DNA from: Faecalibacter bovis | GTDB taxonomy: Bacteria > Bacteroidota > Bacteroidia > Flavobacteriales > Weeksellaceae | Reading direction: 5' to 3' | Assembly: GCF_017948305.1 (NCBI RefSeq) | Contig: NZ_CP072842.1 | Coordinates: forward strand, 722,001-786,000 | DNA: 64,000 bases | Shown: one piece after another, positions 27,343 to 44,510 of the stretch | How the letters are laid out: each line of letters opens with the position of its first letter | How positions within the stretch are numbered: position 1 is the stretch's first letter | Program-made: the position numbers and the translations under genes | The notes under the pieces: model-generated | What the model saw: only the letters and a program-made list of their open reading frames with translations | The model's database searches: none | What the model was told of the DNA's origin: nothing

Positions 27343-27720
27343 ATGGCAACAAATTTCGAATCATTAGTTGTTTGGCAGAAATCTCACGAATTAACTTTGA
27401 AAATTTATGAGATTACCAAGGACTTCCCAAGAGAAGAAATATTTGGTATTACAAGTCAAATTAGGCGAGCGGCATATTCTATTCCGGCAAATATTGTTGA
27501 AGGAAGAAAGAAAAGTACAACTGCTCATAAACTTAGTTTTCTTAGTCATTCAATAGGATCTTTAGAAGAAGTGAAATATTTTTTATTACTATCTAAAGAT
27601 CTAGCATATATTACTCAAACTATTTACGATGAAATTTTTCCGTTGACTGAAGAAGTTGGAAGATTGTTAAGTGGTTACGAAAAGTTTACAAAGAACGACA
27701 ACTTTGGTTCTAGGACTTAA
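27343..27720 (+). CDS. Four-helix-bundle protein (S23/IVP family) inside the his operon
   Basis: A 125-residue all-helical protein of the family found in 23S rRNA intervening sequences and related to the Avd helper of diversity-generating retroelements. Family features are the start FESLVVWQKSHELTLKIYE, FPREEIFGITSQIRRAAYSI, PANIVEGRKKSTTAHKLSFL and a final helix ending SGYEKFTK. It has no known part in histidine synthesis, although it sits between hisA and hisF. Its last codons (SRT) and both flanks are made of the his-operon repeat sequence. Family members are thought to bind nucleic acid; the function of free-standing copies is unknown. Confidence 0.88.
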   Translation: MATNFESLVVWQKSHELTLKIYEITKDFPREEIFGITSQIRRAAYSIPANIVEGRKKSTTAHKLSFLSHSIGSLEEVKYFLLLSKDLAYITQTIYDEIFPLTEEVGRLLSGYEKFTKNDNFGSRT

Positions 27721-29232: not shown

Positions 29233-30567
29233 TTAATAAATTCCGATATAACGATTACCTGGCTTATTAATCAATTGCGCACCTTTTGTTACTTGATTAG
29301 TACGAGAATTAATAACATAAATATTACCATTTTGACCAGTTTCTGCAACAGCTACAAAAACTTCATCACCCACAACTGTGATTCCTTGGTATTGGCTAAA
29401 ATCTAAGTTTGCTTCATTTGGTAAAGTTACTTTTGTCGCAGTTTTATTATTTAAATCCAAACGTGCAATATAACCACCTGTACGAGAACCGTTAACAGAA
29501 ATCGAATAAATAGCATATCCAATTCCGTTTCCTGCGTATTTCCAAGTTTCAATATAACTATTAGTAACTCCTAATTTTTGATCCAAACTAAAATTGTACG
29601 AATTATCGTATTCGTTGTTCTGTCCTATTTTTAGAATGTAAGAACCACCTGAATTTTCTCGGTGAGTTGCCTGATAAACATTTCCGTCAGAAGCAACGTA
29701 AGACATTGGACTTCTATATCCACTATTATCTCCAGTTGAAATTGTAGAAGTGATGATACGTGGATTTTGTAATGAAGGATAATCTACAACCACAGTTTTA
29801 GTTCCTAAACGCTCAAAAGTTGATTGATTAGCCAAAGTTTCTGGATTTATTTTACGCATCCATGTCCCGATGTACGCTTTATTCCCTGCTTTGTTCACAA
29901 CCGGAGCATCTAAACGAAAAATGTGATAACCTTGCACTTCCTCTGCAGCTGATAAACGAAGATCATACTCAACAGAAGCTTTAATTCTTGGATTATTTAA
30001 ATCTAAAGAAATTACTGCTGCTGTACCTTTCGTACCTAAATATGTTGCGTTAGTTCCTTCCCCATTAAATAAGTTTATCACATTACCTATGTTAACCGCA
30101 ATTCCTGTACTTTCTTCTGCTTTTGCCCAACGTGGAGAAGTTCCAACATAAGAATCTGTTCGAATTTCAGAACCAACCATCGAAAAGGAATCTCCACCAT
30201 TTACTTGATATTTATTAAAAACACCTCCATCAGCGCCAGTATATTGAATATTGTATAAATATTTTCCATCGTTAGATGATTGTATTCGAGCAGTACGAGC
30301 AGATTTTACAGGGAATCCTTGGTCGAAGACATTAATCGTATGATTAGGGTTAATCGCATCTGATCTTTTTACACTGTAGACCATCATTCCGCCGTTCCCA
30401 TCACCAGGTTCAGTTTGCATTAATGCACCACCAATTGTTAAATATCTTTCATTAGTTGGATTTACGATTTCATTTCCTGCTCCTGCATCATCATCATTAC
30501 AACTTATCATTGCTAATGGTACAAAAAATGCACTACACATTAAAATTCTAAAGAATTTCTTTTTCAT
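29233..30567 (-). CDS. DUF4374 surface lipoprotein (XusB-like siderophore-binding protein)
   Basis: A 444-residue lipoprotein: a signal peptide with lipobox AMISC (Cys23), then an acidic start (NDDD) typical of surface-exposed lipoproteins in Bacteroidetes. The rest looks like a beta-propeller, with repeated segments such as GKYLYNIQY, NKAYIGTWMRK and NGIGYAIYSI. It resembles the DUF4374 family. Members are encoded beside TonB receptors, and one, XusB of Bacteroides thetaiotaomicron, captures iron-siderophore complexes. Here it lies 11 bases after the receptor gene. The substrate is inferred, not seen. Confidence 0.8.
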   Translation of the reverse strand: MKKKFFRILMCSAFFVPLAMISCNDDDAGAGNEIVNPTNERYLTIGGALMQTEPGDGNGGMMVYSVKRSDAINPNHTINVFDQGFPVKSARTARIQSSNDGKYLYNIQYTGADGGVFNKYQVNGGDSFSMVGSEIRTDSYVGTSPRWAKAEESTGIAVNIGNVINLFNGEGTNATYLGTKGTAAVISLDLNNPRIKASVEYDLRLSAAEEVQGYHIFRLDAPVVNKAGNKAYIGTWMRKINPETLANQSTFERLGTKTVVVDYPSLQNPRIITSTISTGDNSGYRSPMSYVASDGNVYQATHRENSGGSYILKIGQNNEYDNSYNFSLDQKLGVTNSYIETWKYAGNGIGYAIYSISVNGSRTGGYIARLDLNNKTATKVTLPNEANLDFSQYQGITVVGDEVFVAVAETGQNGNIYVINSRTNQVTKGAQLINKPGNRYIGIY

Positions 30568-30578
30568 AATTGTTTGTT

Positions 30579-32972
30579 TTATAATTTATTGATTGTATAA
30601 TTTAATTTTAAATAGAAGGCTCTACCTGGCTTTTGTGCAGCATAATTATCATAAACCTCTGCATTGAAAATATTTTTAGCATCGAAACTGACAATAAAAT
30701 TTTTGTTAGGAAATCTATAACTCAAACCTATATTTTGAGAAAATTGAACAGGTGTCCAGAAATAGTTGTTTTTGTACCAAACAGTGTTAAAGGAATCAAC
30801 ATAATTAAATGAATAATAAACATTTAAAACTGATTGATTTTGAAGTAAATCTTTCAAACGATATTGCACATTTCCGTTAAATGTGAAAAAAGGTTCATTC
30901 GGAACTTGACTTTTGTAGTATTGTGAATTTTTGTCCATGAAAAGCGAATTGAATTTTGAGAAATTCAAAACAATATTTAGATTTTTCTGATAGATGTAAT
31001 TCAATTCCGCTTCATAACCAATTGATCTTGCTTTTGTTAAATTTTCAAAAGGTTGCACTTCGGCACTTTGGTTAGATGTTGTACGTTCTGCTCTTTGCAC
31101 AATTCGATCTTTTACATTGCGTAAAAATCCATTGGCTGAAAGTGCTAATTCGTGATTTCCGAATTTGTAATTTGAAGTTCTAAAACCTAAATTAAAATTG
31201 TGACTAACCTCTGGATTTATTCCAAGATTTGCAGCAACATTATCGGCCTCGTCACCAAAAATTTCTCTTGCATCAGGCATTCTTACAGCTCTTTCTGCAG
31301 AAAATAAGATGTTAAATTTTTTAGATAAAGCATATGAAGTTGCAAGTCCGTAACCAAAAACTTCTTTATTATTTTGTAAGTAATCGATTGAAAAAACATC
31401 ATTGACAAGTTTGGGACGATATGTATTTGTTTGCTGGTGATAAAATTTACCAAAAACATTTGTTCTTAATCGTTTAGTAAACCATTCAGCTTCGTAATTT
31501 AAAGCACTTACATGTTTTGTTAAATCACTGTTTGACTCCATTCTCGATTCTAAAACATGCTTCATTTTATCATCATCATGTCTATCAAGCGTATAAAAAT
31601 TATGGTTGAAAGAGATTCGATGTTGATCCGAAATATTATAATTTAAACCCGCACGAAACGTATAAATTTTTCTATTAACAGTTAACATTTGAGGTTTTCC
31701 TTGCTGAGCGCCACCATCGCGTCTTCTCATTGGATTTCCATTAACGTCTAGCTGAATATTTCCGTCCCAGTTATAGGACCACGTAACCGTATCTTGTATA
31801 TATTGATCTCTGTCGCTGTAATTACCCGTAAAGTTTAAATCTAAATTTTTGATTAAGAAATCCTTCTTTTTATACACCAAACTAAATACGTTTGCATCCG
31901 ATTCAGTGAAACGACCTTTGTAAGGTCTTGTCATGTATAATCCGTGTTGAATTTCCTTGTAAGCGTGTGTAGAATTCAACCCAATAAAAAAACTATCAGC
32001 CCATTTTACGTTTGTAAAACCCGCTTCAATTCTACCTCCATACGTTTTGTACGCATCATTAAATCTTTTGTATTTACCGTAAGTTGTACTACCGTCTTGT
32101 TCAGTGATATGGGCAAACTTTCCGAAAATTTCATAATCGTTATCAGAATATGTATAAAAAGCTGAAACACGAGTGGTAAATCCATTCGATTTGTTTCGAT
32201 ACATTCCGTTAATATCAGTTTGAAACGTATTGAAAGATCCGTACGAAATTGCTGCTGATAGACTATTTTGAGAGATACCTTCTTTTAAAATAATATTAAT
32301 TGCTCCACCCAAATAATCTCCAGACAAATGTGCAGGTAAAACACCTTTATACACTTCAATCCTTTCAATCATTGCGGGTGGAATATTATTTAAATTAAAA
32401 GATGAACCATAAGTTGAAACATCAATACCATCTAAAAAAACACCAACTGAACGACCAGACATTCCGTTTAGATTATACTCAACACTTGAACCTACACCAC
32501 CACTTTGACGAACACGAACGCCGACCGTACGATCCAACAATTCGTTTGTTTGAATATTTCTTTTCGATGCTTCTTTAGTTTCGATCACATTTGCTGCAAA
32601 TCCTTTATTTTCAATCTCTTTTTTTAGTGATTTGTTTTTACGTATTTCTACTGTTTTTAATTTAATATTTTCTGCAGCCGATAATTCGACATCATAAACC
32701 AAATCGTTATTATCTACCGTAATAAAGAAAACTTCTTCTCGATCTCCGACTGTAACTTTTAACGAATATTCTCCATTAGCTACATCAGTAAATTTGTATT
32801 TACCATCTTTCCCTGATTTTGTAAATTTTGAAGTTTCATCACGTAACAACTGGATTCCTGATGCTTCTACAATTTGATTATTATTGTCGTAAACCGATCC
32901 AGAAATAGAATGCTGCGCATAAATTTGATTTGTTAATAAGAGTAATAAATAGAAGGTTAGTTTCTTAATCAT
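30579..32972 (-). CDS. TonB-dependent outer-membrane receptor (XusA-like)
   Basis: A TonB-dependent transporter of 797 residues from ATG 32972; a TTG at 33017 would add 15 residues before the clear signal peptide MIKKLTFYLLLLLTNQIYAQ. After it come a carboxypeptidase-regulatory-like domain (about 20-95), a plug (NELLDRTVGVRVRQSGGVGS to GAINIILKEG, about 145-235) and a 22-stranded type barrel. It is transcribed leftward together with the DUF4374 lipoprotein. An inverted repeat overlaps its promoter. Iron-siderophore or haem import is the likely role, from context. Confidence 0.9.
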   Translation of the reverse strand: MIKKLTFYLLLLLTNQIYAQHSISGSVYDNNNQIVEASGIQLLRDETSKFTKSGKDGKYKFTDVANGEYSLKVTVGDREEVFFITVDNNDLVYDVELSAAENIKLKTVEIRKNKSLKKEIENKGFAANVIETKEASKRNIQTNELLDRTVGVRVRQSGGVGSSVEYNLNGMSGRSVGVFLDGIDVSTYGSSFNLNNIPPAMIERIEVYKGVLPAHLSGDYLGGAINIILKEGISQNSLSAAISYGSFNTFQTDINGMYRNKSNGFTTRVSAFYTYSDNDYEIFGKFAHITEQDGSTTYGKYKRFNDAYKTYGGRIEAGFTNVKWADSFFIGLNSTHAYKEIQHGLYMTRPYKGRFTESDANVFSLVYKKKDFLIKNLDLNFTGNYSDRDQYIQDTVTWSYNWDGNIQLDVNGNPMRRRDGGAQQGKPQMLTVNRKIYTFRAGLNYNISDQHRISFNHNFYTLDRHDDDKMKHVLESRMESNSDLTKHVSALNYEAEWFTKRLRTNVFGKFYHQQTNTYRPKLVNDVFSIDYLQNNKEVFGYGLATSYALSKKFNILFSAERAVRMPDAREIFGDEADNVAANLGINPEVSHNFNLGFRTSNYKFGNHELALSANGFLRNVKDRIVQRAERTTSNQSAEVQPFENLTKARSIGYEAELNYIYQKNLNIVLNFSKFNSLFMDKNSQYYKSQVPNEPFFTFNGNVQYRLKDLLQNQSVLNVYYSFNYVDSFNTVWYKNNYFWTPVQFSQNIGLSYRFPNKNFIVSFDAKNIFNAEVYDNYAAQKPGRAFYLKLNYTINKL

Positions 32973-32986
32973 TGTTAAATTTTTCC

Positions 32987-33023
32987 CAAACCTAATATTT
33001 ATTTGGATTAAGTCCAAATAAAT
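32987..33023 (-). promoter_or_regulatory. Receptor promoter with overlapping 27-bp operator-like palindrome
   Basis: The minus strand reads TTTG (33018-33015), a 20-base spacer, then TAGGTTTG (32994-32987), a full Bacteroidetes -33/-7 promoter, 15 bases before the ATG. A perfect inverted repeat with 11-base arms, ATTTATTTGGA and TCCAAATAAAT, and a 5-base centre TTAAG, spans 32997-33023 and covers the -33 element and spacer. A repressor bound there would block polymerase. A metal-responsive repressor (Fur or DtxR type) is likely from the gene context; which one is not known. Confidence 0.7.
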
Positions 33024-33148
33024 TTAATTATCTGTAAATAATTTAATCTATTAATTTACAGACCTATATAAAATTTACACATTTAATGATATAATTCATT
33101 ATTTAGAATATTTATAATTAATGTTTAGAATTATTATAAATAATATCC

Positions 33149-33182
33149 TATTTTTGACTCTAAATAAAATTAGTCTAAATAA
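33149..33182 (+). promoter_or_regulatory. Promoter of the ankyrin-DUF2271-PepSY-ApbE operon with direct repeats
   Basis: TATTTTTG (33149-33156) matches the -7 consensus 52 bases before the ATG at 33208. Two direct repeats, ACTCTAAATAA (33157-33167) and AGTCTAAATAA (33172-33182), follow with a 15-base period. They resemble the right half, AGTCCAAATAA, of the receptor operator. Shared regulation of the divergent units is inferred. Confidence 0.45.
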
Positions 33183-33207
33183 TAATTAATTACATATACA
33201 CTATCAT

Positions 33208-34671
33208 ATGAAAAAAATATTCATTACTGTTGCGGTCTTGATAACATCATTTATACAAGCTCAAACAAATACGTTAATGGATGCAGCTTTTTGGAAGAAA
33301 AATCCAACAATTGAAGCTGTAAAAAATGAGATTTCAAAAGGAAATGATCCTTCCTTTCAGAATGGTGGATTTTTTGACCCAGTAGTAATTGCAATTAACA
33401 ATAAAGCAGATTTAGAAGTAATCAAATTCTTAATTGATCAGGAAGGAAATTCTGTTGATAAAAAAACACATCATTCACGTATTTATTTACAATGGGCGGC
33501 TGCAGCTGGAAATTTAGAATTAGTAAATTATTTATTAGCTAAAGGTTCAGATGTAAATTACATTGACAGTCATGGTGATGATGTTATTACTTACGCTGCA
33601 AGTGTTGGGAATAGCAATTTAGATGTTTATGATGCATTAATTAAAGCAGGTGCAAATCCTAAAATTAAAAGTGAAAGTGGTTCTAATTTAATCATGGAAT
33701 CCATCGCAAACGATAAGGATTTAAAGATTACAGAATATTTCGTATCAAAAGGATTAGCACTATCAGAAAAAGACAATGCAGGACGTACTGTTGCTGATTA
33801 TGCAGCGAAATTAGGAAACCTTACTATTATTGATAAGTTAGTTGCGAAAGGAATAAAACCTACAGATCAAGCTTTATTTTTTGCTACGCAAGGATCAAGA
33901 ACTAAGGAAAATGGTTTAGAAGTTTACGAAGAATTGGTAAATAAATATAAATTAAATCCAAAAGCTTTAAATCCAGAAGGGCAAACCATACTTCATGCTT
34001 TAGCTCGTCGTGGTAATCTAGATATTATTAATTATTTTATTGCAAAAGGTGCTGATGCTAAAATTATTGACAAAGAAGGAAACACTGCTTTAATGATAGC
34101 TTCTTCAGGTAAAAATTCAGAATTAGTTAAATTATTTTTAAGTAAAACAAACAATATAAATATTGTAAATAATAAAGTTGAATCTGCACTTACAAAAGCT
34201 GTTGCTACTGGCACTCCAGAAATCGTTACTTTTTTAATTCAAAATGGAGCTAAAACTAATCTTATTGATAAAGAAGGAAACAGTTTAGCAGCACATTGGT
34301 TTAATTCATTCAAACCAAAAGATGAAGCATTCCTTAAAAAGCATGAAATTCTATCCAAAAACGGAGTGGATTTTAAAGCAAAACAACACAAAGGTTCAAC
34401 ATTATTGCATTTGGCTGTAGACAAAGGAAATATAGAATTAGTGAATAAAGCAATTGAATTAGGTATTGATGTGAATGCACAAGATGAAGACGGAAATACT
34501 GCACTACACAAAGCTGCTTTAATCGCTAAAGATGACATCGTTTTAAAAGCGTTAGTAAAAGCTGGAGCTAAAAAAGACTTAAAAACTGAATTCGATGAAA
34601 CTGCTTATGATTTAGCTTCTCAAAACGATTTCTTATCAAAAAATAATGTATCTGCTGACTTTTTAAAATAA
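33208..34671 (+). CDS. Secreted ankyrin-repeat protein of the iron locus
   Basis: A 487-residue protein with a signal peptide (MKKIFITVAVLITSFIQAQ, cleavage near residue 19) followed by about ten to twelve ankyrin repeats. Clear ones include ELVNYLLAKGSDVNYIDSHG, NLDIINYFIAKGADAKIIDK and NIELVNKAIELGIDVNAQDE with the usual GNTALHKAA pattern. Ankyrin arrays bind proteins; in the periplasm this one may scaffold or protect the neighbouring redox proteins, but the partner is unknown. It is the first gene of the rightward operon, eight bases before the DUF2271 gene. Confidence 0.85.
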   Translation: MKKIFITVAVLITSFIQAQTNTLMDAAFWKKNPTIEAVKNEISKGNDPSFQNGGFFDPVVIAINNKADLEVIKFLIDQEGNSVDKKTHHSRIYLQWAAAAGNLELVNYLLAKGSDVNYIDSHGDDVITYAASVGNSNLDVYDALIKAGANPKIKSESGSNLIMESIANDKDLKITEYFVSKGLALSEKDNAGRTVADYAAKLGNLTIIDKLVAKGIKPTDQALFFATQGSRTKENGLEVYEELVNKYKLNPKALNPEGQTILHALARRGNLDIINYFIAKGADAKIIDKEGNTALMIASSGKNSELVKLFLSKTNNINIVNNKVESALTKAVATGTPEIVTFLIQNGAKTNLIDKEGNSLAAHWFNSFKPKDEAFLKKHEILSKNGVDFKAKQHKGSTLLHLAVDKGNIELVNKAIELGIDVNAQDEDGNTALHKAALIAKDDIVLKALVKAGAKKDLKTEFDETAYDLASQNDFLSKNNVSADFLK

Positions 34672-34679
34672 TTAAGAAG

Positions 34680-35171
34680 ATGAAATTTAACGTATTAAAA
34701 AAAATAATTGGATTAGTTGTACTATTAATGGCTACTGCCACTTTTGCGCAAACAACAAAATATAAAACCATGATTCAGATGGAAAATTACACAGGTAAAG
34801 AAGCCTATGTAGTGATTTCATTGATCAATCCTAAAGGACAATACGAAAAAACTTTAGCAGTTCTTGGACCTGATAACGAATGGTACAATACTTTAAAAGA
34901 ATGGCACAAATTTAATAGCAAGAAGAAAGAAAAACTAAACGGAATTACTGGAGCTTCTGTTGCTGGCGGAGCAAGAGCAACTCGAGTAATCGAATTTGAT
35001 ACAGCTAAACTTAATAAAGGTTACAAAATCCGATTCGAATCTGCAGTGGAGACTCAAAAATATGTAGTTAAAGATGCTGAAATTGCATTAACATCTGCCG
35101 CTTTAGACAACAAGGCTGGTATTAAAGGAACAGAATACATCAAAGCAGTTCGCTTTATTAAAGTACAATAA
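34680..35171 (+). CDS. DUF2271 periplasmic protein, possible flavinylation target
   Basis: A 163-residue protein with signal peptide (cleavage near ATFAQ, residue 24) matching the DUF2271 pattern: a beta-rich small domain with NEWYNTLKEWHKF and a conserved ITGASVAGGARATRV segment. TGAS at residues 90-93 resembles the [S/T]GA[T/S] motif to which ApbE attaches FMN, with Ser93 as possible acceptor, and apbE is two genes downstream. DUF2271, PepSY and ApbE genes are known to cluster. That this protein carries FMN is a hypothesis. It lies two bases before the PepSY gene. Confidence 0.75.
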   Translation: MKFNVLKKIIGLVVLLMATATFAQTTKYKTMIQMENYTGKEAYVVISLINPKGQYEKTLAVLGPDNEWYNTLKEWHKFNSKKKEKLNGITGASVAGGARATRVIEFDTAKLNKGYKIRFESAVETQKYVVKDAEIALTSAALDNKAGIKGTEYIKAVRFIKVQ

Positions 35172-35173
35172 AA

Positions 35174-37366
35174 ATGACATTATCTATTTGGAGATATGCA
35201 CATTTAGCACTTGCAATACTATCTTCAGCTTTTCTTATAATCTTATCGATTACTGGAGTTATTTTAGCTGTTGATGCAATTAATGAAAAATCGCCTGCAT
35301 ACAAAGTTGATAATTTTGAAAATTTAACGCTCGCGCAAGTCATACCGACATTGCGCGAGAATTATTTTGAAATATTAGAAATAAAAGTGGATCATAACGA
35401 TTTTGTTACGATTGACGCCATGGACGAAAATGGAAATTCTTTCCAAGCATATATAAATCCATCTACTGGAAAAAAATTAGGTGAAATTGTTCCGAAAAGT
35501 GATTTCATCAACTGGATAACTTCTTTACATCGTTCCCTATTTTTAAAGGAAACAGGCCGTGCTATTGTAGGTGTTGTATCGTTTTTATTATTACTAATTT
35601 CTATCAGTGGTTTAATCTTAGTAATTAAAAGACAGCAAGGAATTAAAAACTTTTTCACGAAAGTGAACAAAGATTCCTTCTCCCAATATTTTCATGTTGT
35701 TACTGGTCGTTGGTTATTAATACCAATTTTCATCATCGCATTAACCGGAACATTTATTTTCTTAGCTCGATTAGAACCTTTGATCGGAAAACCTACTGAA
35801 GTTGAACATCAAATCAAAGAAAATTTACCCGCAAAAGAATTGAAAGAAATCGAATTCTTTCAAAACACGAAATTAAGCAAGGTCGAAAAGATAGAATTTC
35901 CATTTATTCCTGATGACGAAGCCGAACCATTTATTGTACATTTAAGAAAGAAAACTGTAACAATAAATCAAGTGAATGGTTCTATTATTTCAGAATCAAT
36001 TCATCCTTATTCAGCTATTGTAGAAAAATTCAATATCGATTTACATACTGGTCGAACTAACGTTATTTGGGCAGCAATTTTAGGTATTGCTTCTTTAAAT
36101 ATCCTATTCTTTATTTGGTCTGGATTTGTAATTACAATAAAACGTACACGTACTAAAATTGGAAAGAATAAATACACTGCTAATCAAGCCGAAATCGTAT
36201 TATTAGTTGGTTCAGAAAATGGTTCAACATTAGGATTTGCAAATAAAATTCATGCGCAGTTTTTAGCCAATGGCCAAAAATCGTACATGGCACAAATGAA
36301 TCAATACGAAGTATATCCAAATGCTAAAAACATAATAATTTTAACTTCTACTTACGGATTAGGTGATGCACCTACAAATGCCAAAAAATTTGAAGAATTA
36401 GTTATAAAAAATCCTCAAAAAAATAACATTAGTTTCTCTGTTATCGGATTTGGATCTATAGCATATTCAGAATTTTGTGGATACGCTATAAAAGTGGATC
36501 AATTACTAGCAAAACAAGCTTGGGCAACTCGATTACTTGAATTAAAAACAATCAACGATAAGTCGCCTGAAGAATTTACAAATTGGGTAAATGCTTGGAA
36601 CGAAATTACTGAAATTCAACTTGCTTCTACTCCTGCTTTATACGCTGGTAAAGCTCCGAGATTGAAAAATATTAAAGTAGAAAAAGTAACTAAAACATCA
36701 ACAGAAGATGCAACTTTCAAAGTTATATTTGACTCCAAAATAAAGTATCAATCAGGTGATTTATTAGCCATTTATCCAGCTCATGATCACCGCGAACGTT
36801 TGTATTCGATAGGAAAAGTTGATAGCAAAATGCAATTAATTGTTAAGTTACATGAATTTGGTTTGGGTTCTCAATTTTTGCATAATTTATCAGAAAACAC
36901 CACAATTAAAGCCCGAATTGTAAAGAATAAAGCATTCCATTTTCCTAAAAAAGCGAGTAAAGTTATTATGATTGCAAATGGGACAGGAATTGCACCATTT
37001 TTAGGAATGATTGATGAAAACAAAAACAAGATTGAAACTTATTTGTACACGGGTTTACGATTTAATAATCACATTTCGAAAGAATATCAAAATTTCGCGC
37101 AAAAGCAAATTCAGAATAAACAATTAAATGAATTTCACTTCGCTTTTTCCCGCGAAGAAAATAGACAATATGTTATGGACTTAGTTAAGCGAGATGATGA
37201 TTTTTTTGCTCAAACTTTAAAAAATGGTGGAATTATTATGATTTGTGGTGCATTAGCGATGCAACACGATATCGAAAAGGTATTGGAAGAAATTTGTCAA
37301 TCACACCTTAACCAATCTTTTAATGATTTTAAAACTAATGGTCAGTTTTTAACAGATTGTTATTAA
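35174..37366 (+). CDS. PepSY membrane protein fused to flavodoxin and ferredoxin-NADP-type reductase domains
   Basis: A 730-residue inner-membrane flavoprotein. Residues about 1-335 form a PepSY-TM module with four helices (near 10-30, 130-150, 180-200 and 295-315). A flavodoxin domain starts at Ala339 (VLLVGSENGSTLG, TSTYGLGDAPTNA). A reductase half follows, with RLYSIG at Arg542 for FAD and MIANGTGIAPFLG at Met599, then IMICGALAMQHDIEKVL for NAD(P)H. This resembles the flavoprotein subunit of sulfite reductase joined to a PepSY anchor. It probably moves electrons from cytosolic NADPH across the membrane to reduce a periplasmic substrate, such as ferric siderophore or the DUF2271 protein. 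Confidence 0.88.
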   Translation: MTLSIWRYAHLALAILSSAFLIILSITGVILAVDAINEKSPAYKVDNFENLTLAQVIPTLRENYFEILEIKVDHNDFVTIDAMDENGNSFQAYINPSTGKKLGEIVPKSDFINWITSLHRSLFLKETGRAIVGVVSFLLLLISISGLILVIKRQQGIKNFFTKVNKDSFSQYFHVVTGRWLLIPIFIIALTGTFIFLARLEPLIGKPTEVEHQIKENLPAKELKEIEFFQNTKLSKVEKIEFPFIPDDEAEPFIVHLRKKTVTINQVNGSIISESIHPYSAIVEKFNIDLHTGRTNVIWAAILGIASLNILFFIWSGFVITIKRTRTKIGKNKYTANQAEIVLLVGSENGSTLGFANKIHAQFLANGQKSYMAQMNQYEVYPNAKNIIILTSTYGLGDAPTNAKKFEELVIKNPQKNNISFSVIGFGSIAYSEFCGYAIKVDQLLAKQAWATRLLELKTINDKSPEEFTNWVNAWNEITEIQLASTPALYAGKAPRLKNIKVEKVTKTSTEDATFKVIFDSKIKYQSGDLLAIYPAHDHRERLYSIGKVDSKMQLIVKLHEFGLGSQFLHNLSENTTIKARIVKNKAFHFPKKASKVIMIANGTGIAPFLGMIDENKNKIETYLYTGLRFNNHISKEYQNFAQKQIQNKQLNEFHFAFSREENRQYVMDLVKRDDDFFAQTLKNGGIIMICGALAMQHDIEKVLEEICQSHLNQSFNDFKTNGQFLTDCY

Positions 37367-37404
37367 GTAAATTTTTAAGAGAACCTCAAATTCATTTTAA
37401 AACA

Positions 37405-38409
37405 ATGAAATCCATTCAAAAATACACACTCATTTTTATACTATTTTTTTCTCTAATTCCTTCAAATGCACAAGTTGTTGGAATTAGAGATTCTATTTTG
37501 ATGGGGAGCAAATTTAAAATCACATTAGTCGATAAAGATTCTATTTCAGTCGAAAAAAACATTAACAAAGCTATAGATGAAATAATCAGAATTGAAAATT
37601 TAATCTCAGATTGGATACCCACTTCACAAGTTTCAGAAATTAATCAAAACGCGGGAATAAGACCAGTGCAAGTAGATCGTGAAGTTTTTGAAATAACTAA
37701 ACGCGCCATTTATTTTTCCGAAATTACTAATGGAGCTTTTGATATCAGCTTTGCTGCAATGGATAAAATATGGAAATTTGATGGGACAATGGAAGAAATT
37801 CCAAGTCAAGTAAATATTCAGAAAGCAATCAGAAATATTGGATATCAAAACATTATTCTCGACGAGAAAAATTCTACTATTTTCCTAAAAAACAAAGGAA
37901 TGAAAATTGGTTTTGGATCAACAGGAAAAGGATATGCGGCTGATAAAGCAAAAGAATTTTTACAAAATATTGGCATAAATGCAGGAATAATTGATGCTTC
38001 TGGAGATATAACAACTTGGGGAAATCAACCCAATAAAAAACTTTGGAAAATAGGAATTACAAATCCTTTTCATCGACAAAAAACAGCGGATATTCTCACT
38101 ATGAAAAATGGAGCTGTTACAACTTCAGGCGATTATGAAAAATTTATTCTGATTGATGATGTTCGTTATTCGCATATTATCAATCCTAAAACTGGAATGC
38201 CTTCAACTGGTTTAACAAGCGTAACGGTTATAGGTCCTAATGCTGAAATGTGTAACGGATTTTCAACATCACTCATGGTTTTAGGATTAGAAAAAGGACT
38301 AGAATTAATAAATAAAGAACAGAATTATGCTGCTTTATTGATTACAGATGAAGGAAAAATCATTCATTCAAAACGCTATAAAATCCTTAAGAAATTATTG
38401 AAAAAATAA
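37405..38409 (+). CDS. apbE: FAD:protein FMN transferase ApbE
   Basis: ApbE covalently attaches FMN from FAD to threonine or serine of exported proteins. I start it at ATG 37405 (334 residues), where a signal peptide MKSIQKYTLIFILFFSLIPS begins. The TTG at 37357 lies inside the end of the PepSY gene. Motifs include GSKFKITLVD, LISDWIPTSQVSEIN, FDISFAAMDKIWKF, GSTGKGYAADKA, DASGDI and HIINPKTGMPSTGL, with metal-binding residues. Its presence implies a flavinylated target nearby; the DUF2271 protein is the best local candidate. Confidence 0.93.
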   Translation: MKSIQKYTLIFILFFSLIPSNAQVVGIRDSILMGSKFKITLVDKDSISVEKNINKAIDEIIRIENLISDWIPTSQVSEINQNAGIRPVQVDREVFEITKRAIYFSEITNGAFDISFAAMDKIWKFDGTMEEIPSQVNIQKAIRNIGYQNIILDEKNSTIFLKNKGMKIGFGSTGKGYAADKAKEFLQNIGINAGIIDASGDITTWGNQPNKKLWKIGITNPFHRQKTADILTMKNGAVTTSGDYEKFILIDDVRYSHIINPKTGMPSTGLTSVTVIGPNAEMCNGFSTSLMVLGLEKGLELINKEQNYAALLITDEGKIIHSKRYKILKKLLKK

Positions 38410-38431: not shown

Positions 38432-39232
38432 ATGAATAAAATCCTTTTAAAAATATTTAGTTTCTTCTTGGGAATCGTGCTTCTTGCCTTTACGTTGATT
38501 TATTTTTATCAAGAAAAACTCATCTTTCATCCGACTAAATTACCAAAAGATTATACTTACAGATTTGATGAAAATCATGAAGAAATTTCAATTCTTACTG
38601 AACAAAAAGACACCATAAACAGTTTATATTTTTATGCAAAAGAACCAAAAGGTGTTATATATTTTCTACACGGAAATTCGGGTGATTTAAGTGGTTGGGG
38701 CGATGTTGCTCCACATTTTACAAGGAAAAATTATAATGTTTTTATGATTGATTATCGGGGATTTGGTAAAAGTGGAGGGAAAATATTTAGTGAAAATCAA
38801 TTTCTGAATGATGCACAAGTTGGATATGACTTTTTAAAAACTTTACATCCTGAAAATGAAATTATCATTTTAGGTTATTCAATTGGATCTGGACCTGCAT
38901 CATATTTAGCCTCGAAAAATAATCCAAGAAATGTGGTCTTAGCCTCACCATTTTATAGTTTTAAAAGTTTAGCAAAAGAAAAAATCCCTTTCTTACCAAT
39001 ATTTATTCTGAAATACCCTTTAGAATCAAACCAATATTTAAAAGAATCCAAAGCTCCTATCACTATTTTTCACGGAGATGAAGACCAATTAATTCCGATT
39101 CATCACGCGAAAAAATTAGCAAGTGAGTTGAAGAATAAAAATGTGAATTTTTATCCTATAATTGGGCAAGGACATAATGGAATTCTGAAGAATTATTCAT
39201 TTTTAAATAAAATGGATTCAATAATGAATTAA
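38432..39232 (+). CDS. Membrane-anchored alpha/beta hydrolase
   Basis: A 266-residue hydrolase with one N-terminal helix (about residues 7-27), then FHPTKLPKDYTY, as in the BEM46/ABHD13 and YfhR type. The oxyanion part is FLHGNSGDLSGW, the nucleophile elbow is LGYSIGSGPAS, the acid is in FHGDEDQLIP, and the catalytic His in IGQGHNGIL. It starts 22 bases after apbE and may belong to the same transcript. A siderophore-ester hydrolase role is possible but unsupported by sequence alone. It ends four bases from the converging S41 gene, with no terminator between. Confidence 0.8.
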   Translation: MNKILLKIFSFFLGIVLLAFTLIYFYQEKLIFHPTKLPKDYTYRFDENHEEISILTEQKDTINSLYFYAKEPKGVIYFLHGNSGDLSGWGDVAPHFTRKNYNVFMIDYRGFGKSGGKIFSENQFLNDAQVGYDFLKTLHPENEIIILGYSIGSGPASYLASKNNPRNVVLASPFYSFKSLAKEKIPFLPIFILKYPLESNQYLKESKAPITIFHGDEDQLIPIHHAKKLASELKNKNVNFYPIIGQGHNGILKNYSFLNKMDSIMN

Positions 39233-42498: not shown

Positions 42499-43101
42499 TT
42501 AAAAATTGACTTCTTTATAAAACTGTTGCACAAAACCTTCCATGTATGCATGACGTTCTTCTGCTATAGCTTTTGCTGTTTTCGTATTCATCAAGTCTTT
42601 TAATTTGAATAATTTATCATAAAAATGCTGAATACTTGAAGCGTTTTTAGAATTATCTTCTGGATTAAATAATATATTCCCCGTACTTCCACCGTATGCA
42701 AAACAACGCGCTATACCAACTGCGCCAATAGCATCTAAACGATCCGCATCCTGTACAATTTCTGCTTCTATAGTTGTCGGTTTATTTCCTTTACTATAAG
42801 AAACTTGAGATACAATTTCATTCACTTGATTAATCAACGAATCGTCTAAACACAAAGATTCCAAATAACTAGTTATTAATTCTTTCGATTTATCAACACC
42901 ATCGTGTAATTTATAATCACCAATATCATGAACCCATGCTGCCAATTCTACCAAAAATGGATCAGCATTTTCTTTTTCTATAATCTTTCTTGCATTTGTA
43001 ACAACACGCTCTATATGAAAATAATCGTGTCCTGTTCCTTCCTCTAAAAAAGTCTTTCTGATGTAAGATTGTACTTCTTTTAAAATTTCATTCTTATTCA
43101 T
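42499..43101 (-). CDS. HD-domain phosphohydrolase
   Basis: A 200-residue HD-superfamily hydrolase. Metal ligands are visible in GHDYFHIERVVTNARKI (His near residue 24), AAWVHDIGDYKLHDG (HD near residue 71) and VQDADRLDAIGAVGIAR (Asp). This matches the YpgQ/YedJ-like group; some members are Mn-dependent nucleotide pyrophosphohydrolases. The precise substrate cannot be read from sequence. It overlaps the end of the 5'-nucleotidase gene by eight bases and is probably co-transcribed with it. Confidence 0.85.
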   Translation of the reverse strand: MNKNEILKEVQSYIRKTFLEEGTGHDYFHIERVVTNARKIIEKENADPFLVELAAWVHDIGDYKLHDGVDKSKELITSYLESLCLDDSLINQVNEIVSQVSYSKGNKPTTIEAEIVQDADRLDAIGAVGIARCFAYGGSTGNILFNPEDNSKNASSIQHFYDKLFKLKDLMNTKTAKAIAEERHAYMEGFVQQFYKEVNF

Positions 43102-44510
43102 GAGTAATTGTAATTCTATTTTCGATTGTAGGATTTATGATTTTTAATTGTTGAATATACTGCTTTAAAACGATATAATCTTCCAAAGAATCGATGTGAT
43201 TTGAATCGATTAAAACCTCATCGTAAGTACTTAATTTACCAAAATTATAATCATTTAAGCACAAGCTATATAAAAAATCATCCTTTATATCATCAAATAC
43301 AAGTTCTTTTGTTTCAGGATTCCATTGATATGTTGCTCCAGAAATCTGAATCAATTTTGGTTTTGAATTAGATAAATAAGAATGAATAAACTTTTTAAAA
43401 TCTTTACCCAACAATTTCACAACAACTATTTTATTTCCAAAAGGTAAAAGCGTTCTAACTTTTTCCAAAGTAAAATCTCCCTTACTTACACTTTTGCGAA
43501 TACCAGAACCATCTATAATAGCCAAATCTGTTTTGTAATGATTTCTCATTGCATCGGTTATTAAATTCCCTGCAAGAGATTCTTTTTTTTAAACTTTCGA
43601 ACGCATCTAAATCAACTTTTAATTCTGCTAAATTTTCTTGTAAAATGGCATCAACTCTTACTTTAACTTTAAGTTCCATTTCCCTGAATTTTCGATCATA
43701 ATTAACTTTAGAATCTAAAGCAATAATTTCTATGATTGGATTTTTATTCTGCGACAAATTAACTTTAGCAACCGAACTCATGTTACCCGCAGTTGCAATT
43801 ATTGGAACATTATTTTGATAATGAATTTGGGTGTGATATTCTTCTAACTCTTCCGTTAATACAAGATTTATTTGTGGAAATTGATGAATTAATTGTTTAT
43901 TTTTTTCTAAATCCATTTGCGTTACCGCAATAATTTGATCAATTGAAGTTAAATCAACAGATTTTAAAACTTTTTCTACAGACGAAAATAAATCAGCTTG
44001 CTGAACTCTTGCATCTTTCTTCGTTGTTTCCATCTGATCTGTTAATCCGATAAAAAGCAACGTTTGATTTTTAATTTTCTTTATGATGTAAGAAGGTAAT
44101 TCATTAAATGGTCGTCCATTTTCATTGATTAAATTAGAAGTAAAAAACTGACCATTTGTAGACTGCATTAATTTTGTAAGATGATCTACACCATAATCAA
44201 ATTCGTGCTGTCCGAAATTAAATAAATCAACTGGAATCTGGTTAAACACTGGCAACATATGCTCTCCTTTATAAATTCCACCATAAAGCACTCCACCAAC
44301 AAAATCACCACCATGAATGGTTATTGTTTGATTATTTTCTTTCTTCGCTAAATCAACAACAGTTTTTAATCGTGCAACTCCACCTCTACCTCCAACAACA
44401 TCGTCTAACTCGTATAATTGATGTGCATCTGTAAAGTAAATCAGTTGTACTTGTGCATTTCCTAGCAACGGAAACATTAAAAATAAAAGTATGTAATAAA
44501 TTGATTTCAT
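43094..44510 (-). pseudogene. Secreted 5'-nucleotidase/metallophosphatase, frameshifted at an A8 run
   Basis: The N-terminal part (44510 to about 43583) has a signal peptide ending GNAQ and metallophosphatase motifs IYFTDAHQ, IHGGDFVGG and FNFGQHEFDYGVD. The C-terminal part continues in another frame from 43582: ESLAGNLITDAMRNHYKTD and IIDGSGIRKSVSKGDFT, typical of the 5'-nucleotidase C-terminal domain. The break is in a run of eight A (minus strand, 43590-43583). With seven A, one 471-residue protein results. Read literally, the first frame ends after about 30 foreign residues at 43482, and the second frame has an internal Met at 43549. It may be a sequencing error, a real mutation, or a slippage-controlled gene. 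Confidence 0.85.

Follow-up and report, generated by a model that had tools for sequence, protein, structure and literature searches.

Six adjacent genes in the complete 2.84 Mb genome of a gut-type flavobacterium of the Weeksellaceae very likely form a module that acquires iron and releases it by reduction. The exported ankyrin-repeat protein encoded among them belongs to the reductase core and is no odd passenger. The full reading, which we consider probable, is that of an iron-regulated xenosiderophore module, in which import is followed by NADPH-driven reduction in the periplasm. The genes lie within the 64,000-nt stretch of DNA that was analysed (the window); the closest named relative is Faecalibacter macacae, whose PepSY protein is 84% identical. 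A preliminary description of this DNA had proposed siderophore import coupled to periplasmic reduction with cytosolic electrons. This proposal is supported, since every computationally testable step agrees with it (the XusA-like receptor, the XusB-like fold of the lipoprotein and the co-directional loci of other genomes).

Two of the genes point leftward and encode a TonB-dependent receptor (30579-33017, minus strand) and a lipoprotein (29233-30567, minus strand). The other four point rightward on the plus strand and encode, in order, the ankyrin protein (33208-34671), a DUF2271 protein (34680-35171), a PepSY fusion (35174-37366) and ApbE (37357-38409), with gaps of a few bases or overlaps between them. 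All six ORFs were found at the coordinates and on the strands first described, and the labels ankyrin, DUF2271, PepSY-flavodoxin-reductase fusion, ApbE and TonB receptor were borne out by Pfam. Because the rightward set, hereafter the core, is kept in every assessable locus, the gene order is far above chance. An alpha/beta hydrolase gene (38432-39232) was rejected as a cluster member, as conservation at the locus is absent and it was matched only in L035 among the surveyed loci. Elsewhere in the window, the his operon has a four-helix-bundle-like ORF (27343-27720) that separates hisA from hisF and by eye resembles the S23 family. A 5'-nucleotidase-like gene (43094-44510) seems to be divided over two reading frames, as a pair of ORFs that overlap, which suggests a frameshift.

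The fusion protein, of 730 residues with four transmembrane segments, is the product of the sole PepSY_TM gene in this genome. It matches PepSY_TM, Flavodoxin_1 and NAD_binding_1 in Pfam; its flavin half is CysJ-like by NCBIfam and finds P450-reductase-like structures in the PDB, and a PDB sequence search with the PepSY half returned chance matches only. The layout is that of the CPR/CysJ type, an FMN-flavodoxin followed by an FAD/NADPH module and a terminal aromatic residue, and the FMN, FAD and NADPH motifs are conserved, in agreement with the earlier claim that the PepSY protein carries its own NADPH-type flavoprotein half. Across 49 fusion sequences, RxYS, S659, C691 and the DCY end are invariant, and R660 and Y666 are also conserved; by motif comparison, S659, R660 and Y666 resemble the site at which P450 reductase binds the phosphate of NADPH. 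H10, H119, H174 and H291 are invariant in the same 49 sequences, and all remaining histidines fall below the 95% conservation mark. Because these four histidines are invariant, the trans-membrane electron step should pass through two haems. With four transmembrane segments and the flavin half inside, H10 and H174 would lie on the cytosolic side and H119 and H291 on the periplasmic side. A diflavin half on a PepSY protein is already known and is no novelty, 1077 PepSY proteins with an NAD-binding domain having been counted (PMC8238504).

The periplasmic DUF2271 protein (PF10029, E 1.5e-37) carries TGAS at residues 90-93, and [ST]GA[ST] is retained in 48 of 50 DUF2271 homologues. The motif and its flavinylation by ApbE were demonstrated experimentally for another DUF2271 protein (PMC8238504), and by analogy with this relative the window protein is predicted to be a covalent FMN carrier. 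The FMN-attaching enzyme previously assigned to the locus is indeed encoded there, as an exported ApbE FAD:protein FMN transferase (PF02424, E 2.2e-82); its ORF starts at TTG, and the probable start is MKSIQKYTLIF. An ApbE gene lies at most three genes from the PepSY gene in 57/68 loci. The window thus has the composition that defines a flavinylated PepSY-like system, namely a PepSY_TM gene clustered with ApbE and a flavinylation substrate. Among the other surveyed loci, the motif is VGET in the DUF2271 proteins of L095 and L103, where flavinylation is probably not possible; DUF6607 (L057) or DUF6607-like (L095, L103) proteins adjoin the DUF2271 or the ankyrin gene. In other Bacteroidota (L107, L108, L114 and L117), proteins of ~500 residues resemble ApbE-DUF2271 fusions and have neither an ankyrin gene nor a PepSY fusion nearby.

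The receptor contains a TonB plug and an N-terminal CarboxypepD_reg domain (Pfam); its ORF opens at TTG, and the probable true start is the later MIKKLTFYLL. Its top PDB match is XusA (9gbc_A, E 1.6e-83), which covers residues 20-806, nearly the full length, and the second-best match has an E value of 7e-9. This match and the CarboxypepD_reg domain together identify the receptor as XusA-like. The lipoprotein has 444 residues and a lipobox followed by Asn-Asp-Asp-Asp (CNDDD), a type of signal that sends lipoproteins to the surface in Bacteroidota. It had been described as a DUF4374 lipoprotein, of which the XusB-like predicted fold stood and the DUF4374 sequence profile did not. The lipoprotein has no Pfam match even at E 10 and no match in a PDB sequence search; PF14298, which is present in the profile library used and does call other lipoproteins, misses both the window protein (E up to 10) and its homologues (E up to 0.1). 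When an AF2 model built from five homologues (pLDDT 72) was compared with the PDB, the six best fold matches were B. fragilis XusB chains, apo and ferrichrome-bound (9hqe/9hqk, E 5e-15 to 2.5e-12), and the next, non-XusB match dropped to 1.8e-8; sequence identity to XusB is 15-16%. By its modelled fold, the lipoprotein is predicted to be a XusB-like beta-propeller, closest to the hookless ferrichrome type (PMC13142918).

A receptor and lipoprotein of the window type adjoin the core at 12 loci, the window included. The pair is divergent from the core in the window, L033, L034, L044 and L045, and co-directional with and upstream of it in L087, L088, L102, L115, L217 and L219, as well as in L218, where the receptor gene is broken. 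L222, L226, L233 and L236 have another kind of receptor ahead of the core, together with one or two lipoproteins. The L222 receptor scores 592 bits against XusA. DUF4374 matches the L236 lipoprotein and both lipoproteins of L222; the first of the L222 pair also matches B. theta XusB (E 1.6e-32). The genuine DUF4374/XusB type is joined to the same core in other genera (L222, L233 and L236). Compared with the nearest relative of the window, identity is 52-57% for the pair and 82-94% for the core, a contrast that would be expected if the pair confers specificity on an unvarying reductase. In our reading, the reductase stays constant and the uptake parts are exchangeable and change fast. A Xus-like pair is absent at most other surveyed core loci, so the core must also serve receptors encoded elsewhere, or other substrates. 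This frequent absence would also suit a general periplasmic ferric reductase that feeds FeoAB from any iron source, with the adjoining pair sharing its promoter region and regulation and having no dedicated partnership with it; HiuB of Caulobacter likewise functions whatever the entry route (PMC13001220). Such a general role is nevertheless unlikely, as pair and core are co-directional in several genera (the loci from L087 to L219 above with an intact receptor gene) and a different XusA/XusB set occupies the same place in L222, L226, L233 and L236.

The ankyrin protein has 487 residues, a Sec signal peptide and ankyrin matches in Pfam, and AF2 models it as a continuous ankyrin solenoid (pLDDT 92.9). 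It belongs to a defined family of ~490 residues in which W29, Y93, W96, E464 and L486 are invariant; the family also has the conserved patch T87-H88-R91-Y93-W96 and ends with an FLK at the C terminus. A reading as an ankyrin effector, prompted by NCBIfam Dot/Icm matches, was rejected, since these score far under the cut-offs and reflect generic repeats. Three sets of loci were surveyed for the neighbours of this gene. In loci picked by the PepSY fusion (19 relatives and 3 from a separate scan), an orthologous ankyrin gene lies directly before DUF2271 in 22/22. In loci picked by DUF2271 across 395 Bacteroidota genomes, ankyrin is present in 25/25 assessable loci with the fusion; one further locus begins at a contig edge. 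The third set was picked by the ankyrin protein within the family; DUF2271 and the fusion are present in 20/20 of these loci, although in L236 the fusion is broken into two ORFs. The neighbourhood survey of ankyrin-DUF2271-PepSY-ApbE sets therefore agrees with the arrangement first described: the ankyrin gene is directly upstream of DUF2271-PepSY in 47/47 assessable Bacteroidota loci picked on PepSY or DUF2271. Moreover, among 60 relatives, an ankyrin orthologue is found in 20/20 genomes with a full-length fusion and in 0/40 of the rest. The gene is absent from loci with other DUF2271 arrangements (the fusions of L107, L108, L114 and L117, and L103 with its DUF6607-like neighbour) and from two whole proteobacterial plasmid clusters in which DUF2271 and ApbE accompany a PepSY protein of equal length. 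Therefore, ankyrin follows the Bacteroidota fusion-type reductase and not flavinylation in general. A Spirosoma oryzicola plasmid (NZ_CP089541.1, L183) carries the ankyrin-DUF2271-PepSY genes, a siderophore-type TonB receptor gene that is divergent from them and an ApbE gene nearby, and the module may thus move between genomes.

The role of the ankyrin protein had been called unexplained. Its conserved neighbourhood now places it in the reductase core, and for its molecular role we offer a proposal. We favour a scaffold in the periplasm, which would either dock DUF2271 onto the PepSY protein or keep the siderophore close to it; docking is a guess to which we give somewhat less than even chances, and antioxidant and siderophore-holding roles remain beside it. 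Periplasmic ankyrins with antioxidant or haem-guarding roles exist, such as AnkB with catalase in Pseudomonas, and reductive iron release yields Fe2+ and reactive oxygen. An antioxidant or haem-guarding factor outside the electron path, although compatible with the rest of our explanation, is quite unlikely in view of the strict one-to-one occurrence with the PepSY fusion and the constant position directly before DUF2271. This strict pairing is better explained by a direct partner of DUF2271 and the PepSY protein.

Iron regulation has been published for relatives of the locus and, by analogy, may apply to the window. In Riemerella anatipestifer CH-1, RNA-seq under dipyridyl showed all of B739_0173 to 0177 raised, with log2 rises of 3.3, 3.6, 2.4, 3.1 and 1.0, respectively, and Fur represses B739_0173 and binds its promoter (PMC5429918, PMC7976709). 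The same sources annotate these genes, in order, as a CirA-type receptor, a hypothetical protein, ankyrin, a 'predicted periplasmic protein' and a 'nitric oxide synthase'. We read B739_0176 as DUF2271, because 'predicted periplasmic protein' is the Pfam description of DUF2271, and B739_0177 as the fusion, because the flavin half of the fusion resembles NOS reductase. The order of B739_0173-0177 is exactly that of L217 and L219, which belong to a small-genome genus of the same family; the match was made by order and annotation.

The divergent promoter region of the window contains an imperfect inverted repeat, TTATTTAG-N-CTAAATAA (33166-33182, neither strand assigned, 13/16 positions), which is a candidate iron-responsive operator. 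Similar repeats scoring at least 13/16 precede 24/47 ankyrin genes, compared with 22/379 other ORFs at the same loci. A related repeat stands before feoA in relatives (L155-L179), where 20/25 score at least 12, compared with 17% of shuffles. In the window's genome, the pattern has good matches ahead of feoA, of the gene for a siderophore-interacting protein (Pfam SIP), of a TonB siderophore-type receptor gene and of sufS. It lacks genome-wide enrichment, at 60 sites compared with 129 for a reversed control, so the repeat is supporting evidence only, and many of the rows counted come from related species. Judged by sequence, the repeat may be the operator of a Weeksellaceae iron regulator, and it differs from the E. 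coli Fur box. Two other readings were rejected. An E. coli-type Fur box (GATAATGATAATCATTATC) finds its best match before the ankyrin gene at 13/19, no better than shuffles, and we do not claim the ATTTAG-N-CTAAAT repeat as a genome-wide regulon, since it has fewer sites than its reversed control, only some of them at iron genes. A literature search for the letters of the repeat returned nothing relevant. A candidate operator also lies before one gene for a siderophore-type TonB receptor (G000:C1 ~551600-553800; L142:2101-4271), which has an early in-frame stop in the plug region, and the genome has probably lost that receptor.

A module for copper or another metal chelate is highly improbable, despite a PepSY_TM branch (CrpH) that aids copper supply to haem-copper oxidases in Bordetella and lies beside copper-type TonB receptors (PMC13038864), given the induction by iron chelation and the Fur binding in Riemerella, the resemblance of the operator-like repeat to the one before feoA and the XusA/XusB type of the uptake parts. 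For the iron module that we prefer, the genome encodes FeoA and FeoB; it contains no IucA/IucC or NRPS condensation gene, which is consistent with the use of foreign siderophores.

From these observations we infer a substrate and an electron path. The surface lipoprotein and the TonB receptor would capture a ferric siderophore and deliver it into the periplasm; judging from the fold match, our best guess for the ligand is a ferrichrome- or hydroxamate-like compound, and haem is a possible substrate that we do not favour. The fusion protein would carry electrons from cytosolic NADPH through FAD and FMN to two b-haems held by the four histidines and on to the periplasmic side. FMN placed on the DUF2271 threonine by ApbE would pass them to the ferric siderophore, and the released Fe2+ would enter through FeoAB. 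More tentatively, and with the balance leaning slightly against it, the ankyrin protein would be a new obligate periplasmic electron-transfer partner, a dedicated scaffold between the covalently flavinylated DUF2271 and a PepSY wire that is self-sufficient from NADPH to the periplasm, within a constant Bacteroidota core that takes different XusA/XusB pairs.

Several known systems share parts of this arrangement. The flavinylation-associated PepSY-like systems (Meheust et al. 2021, PMC8238504) likewise combine PepSY_TM, DUF2271 with [ST]GA[ST] and ApbE; they often include DUF4198, a large subset of their PepSY proteins has an NAD-binding domain, and an iron role was proposed for them. However, the window has an exported ankyrin protein beside DUF2271, where two proteobacterial plasmid loci have a small PepSY or unnamed protein, and ankyrin is not mentioned in the text of that paper. 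As in XusABC of Bacteroides (PMC13142918), a receptor of the XusA kind and a surface lipoprotein of the XusB kind adjoin an inner-membrane reductase with PepSY; whereas XusC is described in that paper as such a reductase and no more, the window has a PepSY-flavodoxin-reductase fusion, DUF2271, ApbE and ankyrin in its place. A further difference is that the window lipoprotein falls outside the DUF4374 profile, and its model is closest to the ferrichrome-binding B. fragilis type. The periplasmic ferri-siderophore reductases FoxB and HiuB (PMC13001220, PMC13038864) also have four histidines that serve two haems, with two on each face of the membrane, and are alike in their TonB receptor partner and xenosiderophore use; haem binding and reduction are predicted for the window protein. 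The electron donor of FoxB is described as unknown (PMC13038864), whereas the window fusion brings its own NADPH-FAD-FMN donor module and has a predicted covalent FMN carrier besides. Riemerella B739_0173-0177 share the annotation order; in L217 and L219, the loci that match it, the receptor and lipoprotein genes point the same way as the ankyrin gene, whereas they are divergent in the window; the accessible parts of the Riemerella papers, which report the induction by iron limitation and Fur on the receptor promoter, do not treat these genes as one system (PMC5429918, PMC7976709).

PepSY-DUF2271-ApbE clusters, their link with iron and fused NAD-binding domains (PMC8238504), the Xus system and Fur control of the Riemerella receptor are thus already known. 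New to us are the ankyrin protein as a fixed partner of the reductase, and the joining of the same core to two XusA/XusB kinds, the window type and the true DUF4374 type, often in one operon. Our literature search, with subscription journals mostly outside its scope, found no work that recognises ankyrin as a component or joins Xus pairs to this reductase, and a search for links between ankyrin and flavinylation or PepSY/TonB returned nothing relevant except the Riemerella table.

For periplasmic ferric siderophore reductases the source of electrons is an open question, as with the FoxB donor, and the inner-membrane end of Xus has only been modelled. The cluster unites surface capture, outer-membrane import, a full NADPH-to-periplasm electron path, a flavin carrier and a conserved extra component. 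If our reading is true, it would provide a compact system for reconstituting reductive siderophore release, and annotators could label as iron genes what such loci list as 'ankyrin' and 'hypothetical'.
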